52,239 nucleotides of DNA from positions 1 to 52,239 of the forward strand of contig JAJYMC010000013.1 in NCBI GenBank assembly GCA_021787335.1. Direction: 5' to 3'. A program made the position numbers and the translations under genes. Below the pieces are notes generated by a model. The model had not been told where the DNA came from. It saw nothing but the letters and a program-made list of their open reading frames with translations, and searched no databases. This document shows, one piece after another, positions 10,882 through 17,358 of the stretch (the stretch's first letter is position 1; each line of letters starts with the position of its first letter). The stretch is from Bacillota bacterium (lineage in GTDB: Bacteria; Bacillota; Sulfobacillia; JAJYWN01; JAJZPE01).

Positions 10882-13569
10882 CTATTCACCGGGTCCGCCG
10901 GCCAACGTTCGGCCGGTGACCGCCACGACCGCCGCCAGAGTCCTCGGAGGAGCGGCCGCCCGCTCCTGCCATTCGGCCAGGGCCTTGCGGGCGATCTCCG
11001 CGACGCGGTCGTACTTCTCGTAGAAGACGACCACCACGTCTCCCCCGCGAGCCTGGCGACAGGCCGTCAGGATGGCTTCCTCCTCGTCCAGGATGACGGC
11101 CACCCCTTCGCGGCGCGCCCCGCCCTCCACGGCCCCGGCGAGGAGCAGCTCAGCCACCTCCCCTGGGCGCCGGCCTCGCTTGTCGTGGTCCTCTTTGATG
11201 AAGAGGGTCGAGAACCCCCGCGCGGCGATCCGTCCAAGCTCATGAAGGTCTTCGTCACGGCGGTCGCCCGGGGCCGCGATGACCCCGATGAGCCGCCCCG
11301 AGGAAAGGGTCCTGACCGCCCTCAGGGTGTTCTGGAAGGCGGCGGGGTTATGCCCGTAATCAACCACCAAGCGCAGGTCGCCCACTTCATAGACGTTCAG
11401 ACGACCGGGGTTGCACTCGGGCGAGTTGCTGAAGGCCCGGAACGCCTGGGACAGCACGCCCAGGTCGGCTCCCGTGGCCCAACCGGCGGCGGCCGCCGCC
11501 AGCAGGTTCTGGATGTTGTGCTGGGCCCGCCCGCCGACAGTCAACGGGAAGTCGCGGACATTGCCCAGTCTCACGTCGTTGCCCCCATGGGCCAGGATGA
11601 ACTGGCCCTTCCGGACGACAACGGCCCTACCGCGTCGATTGAGGTGTCGGCGGACGATGAGGTTGTCGTCCTGTTGGCTGAAGTAGATTATCTCTCCGTC
11701 GGTCCGGTTGCCCAGTTCGACCACGAAGGGATCGTCGGCGTTGAGAATGGCGAAGCCGTTGCGCGGCACCGATTCGACCAGCAGGGCCTTGACGTCGACC
11801 AGGTCCTCGATGGTCTCGATGCCGTCCTGGCCCAGGTGGTCAGAGGAGACATTGGTGACCACGGCCACGTCGCAGTGGTCGAAGGCCAGGCCCCCACGGA
11901 TGATACCGCCTCTGGCCGTCTCCAGGACGGCCACCTCGACCTTGGGGTCGCTCAAGACCACCTTGGCGCTCCACGGCCCGCTGGTATCGCCGTCGACCAC
12001 CCGGCGACCGTCGATCCAGATGCCGTCGGTCGTGGTCAGCCCGACCTTCTTCCCCTGTTCCTTGAAGATATGGGCGATGAGCCGGCTGACCGTCGTCTTC
12101 CCGTTGGTGCCGGTGACGGCGATGACCGGGATGCGCCCGTCCTCGCCGGCGGGGAACATCGAGCGGACGATGGCCTCAGCCACCGGGCGGGGCTGACCCT
12201 CGCTGGGATAGAGGTGCATGCGGATACCTGGGGCGGCGTTCACTTCGATGACCGCCGTCCGGCCGGGGTCGGGCGGAAGGGCGATGTCCGGCGTGACCAG
12301 GTCGATGCCCGCCACGTCGAGGCCGATCACGGCGGCCGCCCGGACCGCCAAGGCGATGATGTCCGGGTTGACCTCGTCGGTGACGTCCCTGGCCGTGCCC
12401 CCGGTGCTGAGGTTGGCCCCTTCCCGCAGGCGGACCACGGCTCCTCCGGCCGGCCGGAAGTCCAGTCCGAGCCCTTGCTTGGCCAGCGTGATGTGGACGA
12501 CTTCGTCCACTTTCATCTTGGTCAGCGGTTTCTCGTGCTCTTCGCCCCGGTTGGGGTCGGCGTTGACAAGCTCGATCAACTCCGCCACCGTGTGCTCTCC
12601 GTCGCCCGTGACGCTGGCCGGCTGCCGCTCGGCGGCGGCTTCGAGCCGGCCGTCGACGACCAGTAACCGGTAGTGCCGCCCCTCCATGAACTTCTCGACG
12701 ATGACCTCCTCGCCGTGCCGACGGGCGGCCCGGAACGCCGCCCGGACCTGCTCGTCGCCGGACAGGTTGAGGCTGACGCCGCGTCCCTGGTTGCCGTCGC
12801 GGGGCTTGACCACCACCGGTTCAGCGATGGTCCCGGCCGCCTCGACGGCTTCATCCTCGGTCTTGACCACGGTACCCGGCGGCACCGGGATGCCGGCCCG
12901 GGCGAGGACCAGTTTGGTCAGGCTCTTGTCGCCGGCGATGTCCACCCCGATGCAACTCGTGCCGGCCGTGACGGTCGCCCTGACCCTTTTCTGACGGCTC
13001 CCGTAGCCCAGTTGCAGCAGGCTCTCAGGACCGATGCGGGTGACCGGTATTCCGCGCCGGCGGGCGGCCTCCGCGATCGCCGCCGTGCTCGGCCCCAGTT
13101 CGGTCCGGGCGGCCGTCTCGATGATGACGGACAGGGCCGCGGCCGCATCCGGCGACTCTCCGGCCACCAACCGTTCGGTCAGTTCAACGGCCTGCCGGGC
13201 GGCCGCCATCCCGGCTTCACGGGCCCGGTACTCGAAGACGATCCGGTAGACCCCGGGACGCTCCGTCTTGCGCGTCTTCCCGTAGACCATCCCCAGACCA
13301 GCCCTCGTCTGCAACTCCAAGGCCACGTGTTCGACGACGTGGCCGACGTAGGTGCCTTCCCGGACTCGCTCGATGAAACCACCCGGCCGTCCGAGCGAGC
13401 AATGGTGCTGGCTCAGGCCGGGCAGAGCGGCCAGAAGCCGCTCGCTGAAATCCCCCAGATCCCGTGTCTGGCGGCCGTCGAGGTCGCCGAGGTCCAGGAG
13501 CATCTCGATCACCGGGTAGTGACTATGGATGTTCCTGCCCTCAAAGGCCTGGAGTTCGATTATCCGCAT
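10882..13569 (-). CDS. cphA: Cyanophycin synthetase
   Basis: 895-residue enzyme making the storage polymer multi-L-arginyl-poly-L-aspartate in an ATP-dependent reaction. Layout: an N-terminal domain (RIIELQAFEGRNIHSHYPV), an ATP-grasp domain (~200-480; VVKPRDGNQGRGVSLN, VIEVNAAPGIRMH), then a Mur-ligase-like domain with P-loop VTGTNGKTT near residue 485 and NVSSDHLGQDG. Length matches bacterial CphA1. ATG 13569 follows AGGAGGG. The cyanophycinase gene lies immediately upstream, so synthesis and degradation genes are paired. Stored N could support sporulation or germination (inference). Confidence 0.95.
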   Translation of the reverse strand: MRIIELQAFEGRNIHSHYPVIEMLLDLGDLDGRQTRDLGDFSERLLAALPGLSQHHCSLGRPGGFIERVREGTYVGHVVEHVALELQTRAGLGMVYGKTRKTERPGVYRIVFEYRAREAGMAAARQAVELTERLVAGESPDAAAALSVIIETAARTELGPSTAAIAEAARRRGIPVTRIGPESLLQLGYGSRQKRVRATVTAGTSCIGVDIAGDKSLTKLVLARAGIPVPPGTVVKTEDEAVEAAGTIAEPVVVKPRDGNQGRGVSLNLSGDEQVRAAFRAARRHGEEVIVEKFMEGRHYRLLVVDGRLEAAAERQPASVTGDGEHTVAELIELVNADPNRGEEHEKPLTKMKVDEVVHITLAKQGLGLDFRPAGGAVVRLREGANLSTGGTARDVTDEVNPDIIALAVRAAAVIGLDVAGIDLVTPDIALPPDPGRTAVIEVNAAPGIRMHLYPSEGQPRPVAEAIVRSMFPAGEDGRIPVIAVTGTNGKTTVSRLIAHIFKEQGKKVGLTTTDGIWIDGRRVVDGDTSGPWSAKVVLSDPKVEVAVLETARGGIIRGGLAFDHCDVAVVTNVSSDHLGQDGIETIEDLVDVKALLVESVPRNGFAILNADDPFVVELGNRTDGEIIYFSQQDDNLIVRRHLNRRGRAVVVRKGQFILAHGGNDVRLGNVRDFPLTVGGRAQHNIQNLLAAAAAGWATGADLGVLSQAFRAFSNSPECNPGRLNVYEVGDLRLVVDYGHNPAAFQNTLRAVRTLSSGRLIGVIAAPGDRRDEDLHELGRIAARGFSTLFIKEDHDKRGRRPGEVAELLLAGAVEGGARREGVAVILDEEEAILTACRQARGGDVVVVFYEKYDRVAEIARKALAEWQERAAAPPRTLAAVVAVTGRTLAGGPGE

Positions 13570-13697
13570 CAGAGACCCTCCTGCCGGGTCTTGTCGTCAA
13601 GTCTGGTGGAACTGCTTTGTCTAGGGCCACTCGAAGTCGCTACTTAGGTCCTATTGTCCCCGCTAAACCAGCCATCTATCGATGTGCGTCGGCCGGA

Positions 13698-14543
13698 CTA
13701 TTCCTCCTCCTCCAGGGCATCGGGCCCGATGGGTTGCCGGCGCTCGAGGTCGTAGCCGTGACCGGCCGGCAAGATGTGCAGCGTCACGCCGAAGAGGGCC
13801 AGGGGTTCGTCGGGCGCGGATTCGGAGGCGTTGGTATGGGCGACCCCTTGCCCGTCCAGGATGGTCACCGTCTGTGAACCGTGGACCTTGAAGAGCCCCC
13901 CCGGCCGGACGACGATGGCCGTGTCCTCATCGATGCCGACCCCGAGAACCAGCGGGTTCTGGGCCAGCGCGGACAGAAGCCGTCCGATCCGGCCCCGCTG
14001 GGCGAAGTGTTGGTCGATGACGACCTGACGGAGCAGGCCCATCCCCGGCGCCATGGCCGTCGTGCAGCGCTTAGGGGCGTCGTCATCCTCCCCGCCGACA
14101 ATCATCGTGTCGCTCATTGCCGACGCCCCGGCGCTGGTCCCGGCGATGACCGCGCCCCGTTCAGCAGCGGCGCGGAAGGCCTCGTAGAGGGGTGTCCCCC
14201 CGATGGCGCTGGTTATCCTGAGCTGGTCACCGCCGGTGAAGAAGATCCCCGTCGACCGGCTGACCCGGTCCACCTGCTCTCCGTGAAAGGCATCGTCCCG
14301 TCGGTCGACCCTGACGATGCAGGTCTCCCGGACCTTCAACCGAGAGAAGACGTCTCGGTAGGTGCGAAAGACCTTGTCCGGGTCCTCCGTGGCCGCGGTG
14401 ACCACGGCCACCACCGACTCGCTCCCCCCCGCGAGGCGCACGAACTCGCGCAGGATGACGCAACGTTCGCGCTTGTCCTCGGCCCCGCCGATGATCACCA
14501 GATGGCCGCGGACGCCGTCGTTCAGGCGCCTGCCGTCGCTCAT
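13698..14543 (-). CDS. cphB: Cyanophycinase
   Basis: 281-residue peptidase S51-family serine exopeptidase that releases beta-Asp-Arg dipeptides from cyanophycin. Start of fold GHLVIIGGAEDK (~9-20) and nucleophile motif IAGTSAGASAM (~137-147) are clear. The ATG at 14543 has GGGGGGA 6 nt upstream; an in-frame upstream extension lacks a ribosome site. It precedes cphA by ~128 bp in the same direction. No signal peptide, so intracellular. Confidence 0.93.
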   Translation of the reverse strand: MSDGRRLNDGVRGHLVIIGGAEDKRERCVILREFVRLAGGSESVVAVVTAATEDPDKVFRTYRDVFSRLKVRETCIVRVDRRDDAFHGEQVDRVSRSTGIFFTGGDQLRITSAIGGTPLYEAFRAAAERGAVIAGTSAGASAMSDTMIVGGEDDDAPKRCTTAMAPGMGLLRQVVIDQHFAQRGRIGRLLSALAQNPLVLGVGIDEDTAIVVRPGGLFKVHGSQTVTILDGQGVAHTNASESAPDEPLALFGVTLHILPAGHGYDLERRQPIGPDALEEEE

Positions 14544-14626
14544 CGTTCGTCCCCCCTGCCGCCCTAGTTTGGCCGCCGTCGCTGGCATTATGCTCGACAG
14601 CGCGGCCCCGCGGCCGGCCGCCGGCG

Positions 14627-14676
14627 CAAAAAGACCGGCCCCCGCAGGCTCGACGCCCGGCGGTGACCGGTCTCTT
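14627..14676 (-). terminator. Terminator of the cytochrome operon
   Basis: Minus strand AAGAGACCGG ... CCGGTCTTTTTG with an internal GC-rich loop, directly after the multihaem gene. Confidence 0.7.
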
Positions 14677-14708
14677 TCTTATCGTTCATCCTGGTCCTCT
14701 TGACGGTC

Positions 14709-15554
14709 CTACTTGGTTGAGAATTTGTGGCAGGCGGTACACGGCATCCCGGCCATGTGTTCCTTCCGGTCGCCGTGGCAGGTCAGACAGGTGTTCCTGA
14801 CCGATGCGTCGGCCGCGACCTTCCACGAGTGCGGCTGATGGCAGGTCTGGCACGTCTGGTGCGCCGGCTGGGAGTGCAGCGCCACTTTGGTCTGATCGGC
14901 GTGGCAGCTCAGGCAGGACACCGGCTGGTTCCCGATGTGCGGCTTGTGGCACGACTGGCAGGTGAAGTTCATCGGGGCGTTGGCCGAGAAGGTCCCCTTG
15001 GCCGGCCCCTGGTCGGCGTGGCACTTCAGGCAGGCCTCGCGGGTCGGCTCGAAGGTCTTGACCCCTTTGAGGTAGGAGTGGCACGACGAGCAGTGCACGC
15101 CCTTCATGCCGTCGATGTTGACGCTGCCCGCGGCCAGAGTCGTCTTGACCCCCGACCCGGCCATGTAGAGGGCGGCCACGGTGGCGACGATGAAGAACGT
15201 CAGGGCCACCGGCCGTTGGATCGGTTTGCGCCGCGGGTTCTGGTCGATGAATGGCACCGCGAAGAGCATGGCCAGGATGAGAAAGGCGATGGTCATCGTC
15301 AGGGCCGTGGAGACCCTGTTCGAGCCCAGGTACAGGTAGAACAGGTACCACTGGGGCTGGAAGCTGACCTGCGGGGCGGCGGCCGGGTTCGGCAGCCCGA
15401 TGAACCCGGCGGCTGGGCGGAGGGCGGCGATGACGAGCAGCACTATCGCGCCGATCACCATCACCAGGACTTCCTTGAAGAAGTGGTCGGGGAAAAACGG
15501 ATGCCCGCTCTTGTGGGCCGCTGGAGCCTCTTTCGCCGGCGCCATGTTAGCCAT
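14709..15554 (-). CDS. Cytochrome b C-terminal (PetD-like) domain fused to heptahaem cytochrome c
   Basis: 281-residue membrane protein. The N-terminal half has three transmembrane segments (VLVMVIGAIVLLVIAAL; LTMTIAFLILAMLFAVPFID; LTFFIVATVAALYMAG) with AVPFIDQNPRRKP, resembling subunit IV/cytochrome b C-terminal regions. The second half carries seven CXXCH haem-attachment motifs: CSSCH, CLKCH, CQSCH, CLSCH, CQTCH, CLTCH, CTACH. In Bacillus QcrC the same fold carries a single haem c, so seven is unusual. It should pass quinol electrons to extracytoplasmic acceptors. ATG 15554 follows GAGGGTG. It is downstream of the cytochrome b gene; no Rieske gene is in the operon. Confidence 0.85.
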   Translation of the reverse strand: MANMAPAKEAPAAHKSGHPFFPDHFFKEVLVMVIGAIVLLVIAALRPAAGFIGLPNPAAAPQVSFQPQWYLFYLYLGSNRVSTALTMTIAFLILAMLFAVPFIDQNPRRKPIQRPVALTFFIVATVAALYMAGSGVKTTLAAGSVNIDGMKGVHCSSCHSYLKGVKTFEPTREACLKCHADQGPAKGTFSANAPMNFTCQSCHKPHIGNQPVSCLSCHADQTKVALHSQPAHQTCQTCHQPHSWKVAADASVRNTCLTCHGDRKEHMAGMPCTACHKFSTK

Positions 15555-15615
15555 GTGATTCACCCTCGTTCCGTGGGGATGACGGTGCGCCTGAGGCGGT
15601 CTCGCGGTTCGCTGA

Positions 15616-16299
15616 TCATAGCGGTCCCGAGATGCCCTGACGGCGGACGACCACGAAGTGAATTCCAAGGAGGATGATGATCGACGCCGGGAGGGCCCAC
15701 ACATGAAGGGCGAAGAACCGCCGGAGGGTGACGGCCCCGACCATCGCGCCGCCCCTGAGGATCCCGGCCAGCACCGGCCCGATGAGGGGGGTGCCCTGAA
15801 CGACTTTCAGGAGTTCGGACGTCCCCCAGTAGGCCTGCTGATCCCAAGGCAGGAGGAACCCGGTGATGGCGAAGGCGAAGGTGATGACGAAGAGGAACAC
15901 GCCGACGACCCAGTTAAGCTGGCGTGGCTTCTTGTAGGACCCGGTGAAGAAGACCCTCAGCATGTGCAGGATGACCATCAGGACCATCCCGTTGGCCGCC
16001 CAGCGGTGCATCGTCCGGATGAGCCAGCCGAGAGGCAGCTTGTAGACGATGAACTGCACGCTCTGGTAGGCCAGCTCCGGATGCGGCTTGTAGTAGAAAG
16101 CCATGATGATCCCGGTGATGGCCTGCACCCCGAACAGGAAGAAGGTGATCCCGCCGAGGCAGTACATCCAGTTGACGTGGGCCGGGACCTCGTGCTCGGC
16201 GATGCTCTTCCAGAGGGCCCGGACGCGGAACCGTTCATCCAGGCGGTCCACCACTCGGACGAGGGGTGACCGGCCGGGGCGGTTTACGCGCTCTTCCAT
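15616..16299 (-). CDS. Cytochrome b6-type subunit
   Basis: 227-residue di-haem cytochrome b N-terminal domain with four transmembrane helices. Haem-ligand histidines lie in IRTMHRWAANGMVLMVILHM and in FFALHVWALPAS...LGIHF. The quinone-site region AFAITGFLLPWDQQAYW and GTPLIGPVLAGILRGG follow the b6 pattern. Start ATG has GGGGAGGAG upstream. It pairs with the PetD-haem c fusion downstream to make a quinol oxidising module. Confidence 0.93.
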   Translation of the reverse strand: MEERVNRPGRSPLVRVVDRLDERFRVRALWKSIAEHEVPAHVNWMYCLGGITFFLFGVQAITGIIMAFYYKPHPELAYQSVQFIVYKLPLGWLIRTMHRWAANGMVLMVILHMLRVFFTGSYKKPRQLNWVVGVFLFVITFAFAITGFLLPWDQQAYWGTSELLKVVQGTPLIGPVLAGILRGGAMVGAVTLRRFFALHVWALPASIIILLGIHFVVVRRQGISGPL

Positions 16300-16368: not shown

Positions 16369-17127
16369 CTAGTTGCGGACCGGGACGGCGGGCTCGGCCT
16401 CGGCCGAAGGACCCATTGCCTTGGCCAGGAAGAGCGGGCCGAGCAGCAGGTAGGCGCCGATGGTGGCCGCCGCCGCGACGAGGAGCAGCCCCTGGAGGGC
16501 CGTCCAACCGATGAGCTGAGTGGCCGAGACGACCAGGCCGATGACCGCGCCTCCGGCGAGGAGATACTTGACGGCCGCTTCCGCCGTGGCGCCGGTGGTC
16601 AGCGCGCTGGCGAAACAGATGGCCATCAGCGCGAACAGCAGATTGACCGGGACGTCGAGACCGTAGGTCACCGAGTACGGATGCCCCTGGGCCCAGATGG
16701 CCAGGTTCTTGAGGGCGATCGCCTGCTCAGTGCCACTGATGGTCAGGAACCGTCCGGCGATGTCGCTGAAGACGACCGTCTTGAGCAGCGCCGCGAACAG
16801 CCCCGAGAGGACGAACAGCCCACCGAAGGTGGCTCCCAGGACGGACATCAGCCGGTTACGCCCGATGGTCATGGCCGTCAGGGCCATCACTACCGGGACC
16901 TGGAGCAGGGCCAGACCGACCAGGTTGAAGCGGCCCCACCCATTGATGAACGGGAAGATCTTGGTCACTCCGCTCGCGGCGGGGTCTTGCCCGACCCTCG
17001 TCAGGAAGCACAGCCCGGCCAGGACGATCCAGAGCGCGGTGCTCAGGGCGACCGTGAAAGCGGCATACCCGGCGATCCGGTACACCGACTTGCGGTTGTC
17101 GCGCTCCACTACCACGTTATCCTTCAT
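16369..17127 (-). CDS. Hypothetical polytopic membrane protein of the cytochrome operon
   Basis: 252 residues with about seven hydrophobic helices (for example VALSTALWIVLAGLCFLTRV and GLLLVAAAATIGAYLLLGPL). Family not recognised. It is first in the cytochrome b operon, directly behind the promoter, so a role as a membrane anchor or quinone-interacting subunit is plausible but unproven. No haem c or iron-sulfur motif is visible. The ATG at 17127 has AGGAGGGG 6 nt upstream. Confidence 0.8.
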   Translation of the reverse strand: MKDNVVVERDNRKSVYRIAGYAAFTVALSTALWIVLAGLCFLTRVGQDPAASGVTKIFPFINGWGRFNLVGLALLQVPVVMALTAMTIGRNRLMSVLGATFGGLFVLSGLFAALLKTVVFSDIAGRFLTISGTEQAIALKNLAIWAQGHPYSVTYGLDVPVNLLFALMAICFASALTTGATAEAAVKYLLAGGAVIGLVVSATQLIGWTALQGLLLVAAAATIGAYLLLGPLFLAKAMGPSAEAEPAVPVRN

Positions 17128-17329
17128 CTTAACCCCTCCTTCTCTTGGCTTATTGTGCCAGCGTTTCATTGCACCATTCTTCACAATTCCCGCCCCTATA
17201 AACGGGCTGTTCGCCCGCTATGGCCCAAATCGTCGGGGGCCGCATCCCAAGGGGTCACCCCCGACCCCTTTCTAAAGTTATAATAACTTATAGTTTATAA
17301 TGTATATATTTGCTTTAACTTGCACTTTC

Positions 17330-17358
17330 ATTATAGGGGATACTGTCTTTTCTGGCAA
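17330..17358 (-). promoter_or_regulatory. SigA-type promoter of the cytochrome operon
   Basis: Minus strand TTGCCA (17358-17353), 17-bp spacer, TATAAT (17335-17330). A ~200-nt leader follows. Confidence 0.75.

Follow-up and report, generated by a model that had tools for sequence, protein, structure and literature searches.

A Rieske-less cytochrome b6/PetD pair with a heptahaem arm: a probable non-bifurcating menaquinone:cytochrome c oxidoreductase of uncultured Bacillota

Introduction

To our knowledge, the Rieske protein is regarded throughout the bc1/b6f complexes as a partner that cytochrome b cannot do without. What, then, could a cytochrome b6/PetD core do that stands without one? This question is raised by an operon in the window studied here (the whole stretch of DNA that was analysed, 52,239 nucleotides from the genome of a Bacillota bacterium), in which a cytochrome b6 gene with no adjacent Rieske gene is followed by a PetD gene fused to a heptahaem c domain. 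Our reading of the sequence is that this b6/PetD-c7 pair is probably a derived, non-bifurcating menaquinone:multihaem cytochrome c oxidoreductase. We also advance, more tentatively, the possibility that throughout the order this Rieske-free complex has a silenced Qo site and would act as an electrogenic wire between n-side menaquinone and the attached heptahaem chain.

Results

The operon lies on the minus strand (17184-14709) and consists of three genes, encoding a membrane protein, cytochrome b6 and the PetD-heptahaem fusion. Gene 1 (16369..17184, minus strand) encodes a protein of 271 aa with about six hydrophobic helices, gene 2 (15616..16299, minus strand) the cytochrome b6 (PetB) of 227 aa, and gene 3 (14709..15554, minus strand) the PetD (subunit IV) fused to a heptahaem c domain, identified by profile and PDB matches. 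We placed the start of gene 3 at the ATG at 15554; called in its longer form, up to 15704, the ORF runs into b6. Upstream of gene 1 there is a sigma-70-like promoter (TTGCCA-17-TATAAT, 17330..17358, minus strand), which is a consensus match only (11/12), and 3' of gene 3 a GC-rich hairpin with a U-run resembles an intrinsic terminator (14628..14677, minus strand; 13-bp outer stem, z -2.7). No promoter-like sites were found between the three genes. By this layout, the b6/PetD-c7 genes and gene 1 are predicted to be one transcription unit, and in the window's genome the contig continues on both sides of the operon.

The original prediction had described the middle gene as a normal b6. Indeed, it encodes a full b6, which aligns nearly end to end with cyanobacterial b6f b6 (PDB, E 8e-67) and matches PF00033 at E 5e-54. 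The b-haem ligands His 86, 100, 187 and 202 (b6 numbering) are present in all four genomes of the order, and would bind the two bis-His b haems that mark the core of the family. The b6f-type subclass is indicated by Cys35, for haem c_n/c_i, and by the split into b6 and PetD; this Cys and the n-side Arg207 are invariant in the four-genome clade. Near the n-side site, Asp20 is replaced by Ser in three of these b6 proteins. However, the word "normal" does not hold for seven otherwise conserved positions, which differ. The ExtP model NF040969 is among the best NCBIfam matches of b6, with 248.9 bits against a cut-off of 290, which is not reached, and no match was reported to PF01292, the mark of the VhtC-type (hydrogenase) cytochrome b of Mco, discussed below.

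The N-terminal part of gene 3 (15126..15554, minus strand), with three helices and the PFIDQNP segment, is a PetD/subunit IV, i.e. the C-terminal half of cytochrome b in bc1/b6f complexes. It matches PF00032 above the Pfam cut-off, b6f subunit 4 in the PDB (E 4e-10), and NCBIfam TIGR01156 at E 1e-10, below the cut-off of that model. As had been noticed at the outset, seven CXXCH sites follow (CSSCH, CLKCH, CQSCH, CLSCH, CQTCH, CLTCH and CTACH; 14727..15092, minus strand), 3' of the three hydrophobic helices with 'AVPFIDQNPRRK'. They are packed within about 120 residues, in a domain assigned by Pfam to Cytochrom_c3_2/paired CXXCH. All seven are invariant in 4/4 genomes, one of which, from the order's other family, is at 45% identity, so that PetD-c7 is neither a chance arrangement nor a frameshift artefact. 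Six further His of the domain, candidate distal ligands, are also invariant in the four genomes, which suggests that the c7 haems are mostly bis-His and low-potential. PF03264, the single-helix NapC/NirT N-terminal domain characteristic of the NapC/NirT/NrfH quinol dehydrogenases, was not reported for gene 3. AlphaFold models of genes 1 and 3, with 3-4 homologues each, reached a pLDDT of 40-42 and were not used for fold searches.

PetD-c7 was not found outside the window's order, either among 154 genomes of the class, where the next best match (E 1e-20) covered the PetD part only, or in a phylum sample of 398 genomes, and no homologues were found on plasmids. Beyond Bacillota, the search was a single short-peptide scan, sensitive to close relatives only, which returned one.

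That the operon has no Rieske gene was also part of the original prediction, and a profile search extends this statement to the whole genome and to all four genomes of the order. The Rieske profile PF00355 had no match in the genome that contains the window, which is 3.55 Mb long and 96.9% complete; the other three of the order, with a completeness of 95-97%, likewise gave none. A gene for a Rieske 2Fe-2S protein, whether beside the complex or elsewhere, is thus found in 0/4. As a control, the same profile matched in 92/154 genomes of the class, in which cytochrome b (PF00033) matched in 94/154. When a bc-type cytochrome b was counted as clear at a PF00033 score of at least 100 bits, class-wide over the 154 genomes, 60 genomes had one, and Rieske was absent from only four of these 60, exactly those of the order.

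Could a Rieske protein or another FeS subunit, encoded away from the operon, have been missed, either in an unassembled part of the genome or because it has diverged beyond the reach of the profile? We consider this very unlikely. The genomes are indeed 95-97% complete drafts and gene 1 is of no recognised family. However, the absence recurs in four independent assemblies, for which incompleteness would have to cause four independent 3-5% misses, with an estimated chance of about 1e-6; the window's operon does not sit at a contig end, and the profile does match in the 92 class genomes of the control.

Gene 1 was considered as a hidden Rieske or a substitute redox subunit, and was rejected as such. 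It has no Rieske motif and, in agreement with its first description as an unrecognised membrane protein, no Pfam or NCBIfam family match; even at E 10 its members gave only DUF7315 (E 8) and DUF6041 (E 0.11), in one member each. The gene accompanies the operon in all three f1 genomes (the window's family) and is missing from G400, the genome of the order's other family, so that it is an accessory rather than an essential component of the core.

Elsewhere in Bacillota, the b6/PetD loci examined have the Rieske gene directly upstream of b6 or, in two small groups, downstream of PetD, the sole exception being L040, a small contig fragment. This locus (G002:C121, 2761-4191, minus strand), located amid succinate dehydrogenase-like genes, encodes a b-PetD fusion of full length that has PEWY and a single haem c; there is no Rieske on its 9.6 kb contig, and it is possibly another Rieske-less case. 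The apparent Rieske-less state of two f2-family loci (L097 and L098) proved to be an artefact of short flank, as Rieske sits downstream of PetD. Additional cytochromes b were also observed. G400, which is without any Rieske, has a second, long-branch one of 391 aa, a fused b6-PetD-like protein (L062, G400:C20, 7429-8604, minus strand). The window's genome has a second, b6-like one of 204 aa (L035, G000:C30, 7177-8668; PF00033 about 50 bits), with no adjacent Rieske, a haem-less two-helix partner and adjoining two-component regulators. Weak PF00033 matches of 210-250 aa, like that of L035, occur in many genomes of the class.

The b6 and PetD-c7 pair is found at the same chromosomal site in 4/4 genomes of the order. 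On one flank there is a small conserved gene, preceded by ksgA in the f1 genomes, and on the other, where the contig reaches, are cyanophycinase and cyanophycin synthetase genes. In the window the latter lie just downstream of the operon (10882-14588), and their linkage is kept across both families of the order. The b6 tree unites the four sequences without Rieske in a single clade (100/99), placed among Rieske-bearing ones, the deep branching order lacking resolution. One clade at one conserved site implies that the Rieske-less state is old and has been kept. Furthermore, because nearly all relatives of the b6/PetD core carry a Rieske, its loss is the simpler reading.

We then compared, residue by residue, the four Rieske-less sequences with 39 Rieske-bearing relatives. 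All four Rieske-less b6 are changed at seven positions whose conservation elsewhere is at least 80%, and five of these seven lie in residues 130-155, the cd1 helix lining the quinol-oxidation (Qo) site (hypergeometric p 0.004). This clustering was the strongest among the 14 clades tested, the nearest of the 13 control clades giving p 0.096. In particular Tyr136, invariant in 39/39 relatives, is Phe in 4/4 Rieske-less b6 (Phe148 in the window's protein, 15856..15858, minus strand). In PetD, the Qo-site motif PEWY is replaced by PQWY (15345..15356, minus strand), or by TQWY in G400, so that Glu/Asp78 is Gln in 4/4, and Tyr/His74, located four residues before and present in 33/39 relatives, is Val or Lys in 4/4. 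None of the four genomes therefore has the Qo-site signature, i.e. a PEWY-type motif with the cd1 Tyr136.

The acid of PEWY is not universal, since PAWY or PLWF is found in some Rieske-bearing relatives. The Glu change alone thus proves nothing; what sets the Rieske-less clade apart is the combination. By our own residue mapping, b6 Tyr136 would correspond to Y147 and the PEWY Glu to E295 of Rhodobacter capsulatus, both of which belong to the Qo proton network, where alternative proton routes have also been noted (PMC10583091). The cd1 loop of the Rieske-less b6 retains LPWDQ, and given this the Qo pocket may still be present. The apparent erosion of this pocket independently fits the loss of normal bifurcation.

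Two other explanations bear on these changes. The first is that menaquinol is still oxidised at a modified Qo site and bifurcation persists there, with the nearest c7 haem replacing the Rieske cluster as first acceptor: one electron would go to c7, and the other would reach the n-side via the b haems. In its favour, haem c_n, the chain of b haems and a good part of the cd1 loop have been retained and, as the C-terminus of PetD is outside in the known b6f topology, c7 would sit outside, beside Qo. However, Y136F, E78Q and the loss of Tyr/His74 are common to 4/4 genomes, the potential of bis-His multihaem cytochromes c is usually too low to pull bifurcation, and gating normally requires a mobile acceptor; we regard this explanation as unlikely. 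The second is that an ancestral bc complex has lost its function and is decaying, so that the operon would be a relic, with one core subunit gone and a changing Qo site. This is hardly credible: the frames are open, the haem ligands are invariant in both genes and synteny is conserved. Moreover, a conserved heptahaem domain has been added, and promoter- and terminator-like sites are present.

Besides PetD-c7, the only multihaem genes found in the genome are on contigs C17, C23 and C11. On C17, a NapC/NrfH-like decahaem protein (102085-102924), which carries PF03264 (NapC/NirT N-terminal domain), has the c7 module as its C-terminal half (35-39%, E about 1e-24). The occurrence of one heptahaem module on both PetD-c7 and this decahaem protein supports a shared outer redox partner. 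The decahaem gene follows one for a TPR protein (L034, 8067-10425, plus strand), a pair conserved in G399 (L137); it has counterparts in G399 and, as an 11-haem form, in G400 (35-39% identity with the C17 copy). On C23 (L053, 8622-10898, minus strand), a protein of about 750 aa combines an S-layer homology domain with ten CXXCH sites. It has MtrC/MtrF-like and C552-like matches and is a probable surface electron-transfer cytochrome; its gene is close to ATP synthase genes. On C11 (L054, 8259-10731, plus strand), a decahaem protein with weak ExtN/ExtM matches is followed by a two-domain rhodanese lipoprotein, a pair reminiscent of the Geobacter Ext (selenite/tellurite) cluster. The organism has a short outward multihaem inventory.

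O2 as terminal acceptor via a haem-copper oxidase was considered and rejected. The sole PF00115 matches, on C18 (L135, 8272-10238) and C44 (L136, 7715-10117), resemble nitric oxide reductases: one is a COX1-family gene with a small c-type cytochrome before it (NorC/NorB-like), and the other, a frame of 800 aa, contains a NorB cytochrome c-like domain (qNOR-like). No oxygen-reducing haem-copper oxidase was found in the genome.

The module common to PetD-c7 and the NapC-like protein also favours a different mechanism, in which menaquinol would be oxidised at an outer site and both electrons would pass straight to c7 in an electroneutral, NapC/ImcH-like manner, the b haems being structural or vestigial. 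Outward flow of this kind would also fit the S-layer decahaem protein. However, the four b-haem ligands and the c_n Cys are invariant across a family-level split, which would be hard to explain if they were unused, and we consider this mechanism decidedly unlikely.

Discussion

The evidence points to a bc/b6f-family complex that would have lost its Rieske protein and, with it, electron bifurcation at the Qo site. With gene order, family membership, Rieske absence and residue changes read directly in the sequences, we infer complex formation, haem loading, site usage and the possible directions of flow. The b6 subunit would keep both b haems and haem c_n; its core would be closed by PetD, whose C-terminus would lie on the outer side and bear the heptahaem wire in the place of cytochrome f/c1. 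In a more tentative version of this reading, the quinone site used would be mainly the n-side (Qi) one, and electrons would follow a simple transmembrane wire, from n-side menaquinone to haem c_n, b_n, b_p and c7, or in the opposite direction. This wire model is the most economical because no high-potential mobile first acceptor is known, the Qo site is altered, and the b ligands and the n-side Cys are kept.

On physical reasoning, the two directions should differ in their energy balance. Inward flow, from c7 to menaquinone with proton uptake from the cytoplasm, would conserve energy if only the n-side site is used. In outward flow, menaquinol would feed surface or periplasmic cytochromes, and this would consume pmf unless the acceptor is favourable. 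The original prediction was of a non-bifurcating quinol oxidase/reductase. Its non-bifurcating part is strengthened by the lack of Rieske in the order and by the Qo erosion, but "quinol oxidase" describes only one of the two directions. Similarly, its proposal that electrons go to multihaem carriers or extracellular acceptors gains from the S-layer decahaem protein, which makes the outward route plausible, but both direction and acceptor are putative.

How does the pair compare with known systems? With the b6f-type complexes (the Bacillota b6-SUIV-c operons, Heliobacteria and cyanobacterial b6f), it shares homologous b6 and PetD, the order b6-PetD-c, the haem c_n Cys and a PetD-attached haem c on the outer face. 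It differs from them by the lack of Rieske in locus and genome, by its seven c haems and by the changed Qo residues. Bacillota operons of the type Rieske-b6-PetD(3 haem)-multihaem (L036 and L043) likewise have a CXXCH-extended PetD and multihaem neighbours; however, Rieske is directly upstream, PEWY is intact, and the PetD protein has about 500 aa with five predicted helices. The Geobacter Ext cluster, in which the ExtO Rieske lies beside the ExtP cytochrome b, with ExtQ (PMC5877670), shares an ExtP-like b and a multihaem electron chain but has a Rieske. In the Rieske/cytochrome b complexes of anammox bacteria (Kuenenia), with b6-like and SUIV-like subunits, a hexa- or octahaem c replaces cytochrome f, but Rieske proteins are kept and an NAD(P) oxidoreductase is added (PMC12954380).

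Two functional analogues are also known. Mco of ANME-2a/b, a methanophenazine:cytochrome c oxidoreductase, combines a cytochrome b with a 7-11-haem c, but uses, in place of b6/PetD, a hydrogenase cytochrome b of the VhtC type (PMC9012536). CbcBA of Geobacter, a quinone:cytochrome c oxidoreductase, is made of a cytochrome b and a 7-haem c (PMC10989804; PMC10553843), and we liken it to b6/PetD-c7 by its description. Our literature search, which took in few subscription papers, met no previous account of Rieske loss from a b6/PetD core. The b6/PetD-c7 pair appears to share ancestry with the Rieske/cytochrome b complexes, but lacks their defining feature, and in terms of function it should not be classed with them.

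A plain transmembrane wire has been proposed as the working of the b core in early, pre-Rieske ancestors of the family. A lineage without Rieske, with the b-core ligands kept and the Qo site changed, would be a natural experiment on the requirements of bifurcation, and would make the plain-wire working of the b core testable. If our reading is true, a bc complex has been turned into a Q-loop-type cytochrome c:menaquinone oxidoreductase. Few links between menaquinone and surface cytochromes are known in Gram-positive-type anaerobes, and this fused quinone-to-multihaem module would be one more. Its carriers, a small group of uncultured Bacillota, probably transfer electrons between their menaquinone and the surface of the cell with no two-way split.
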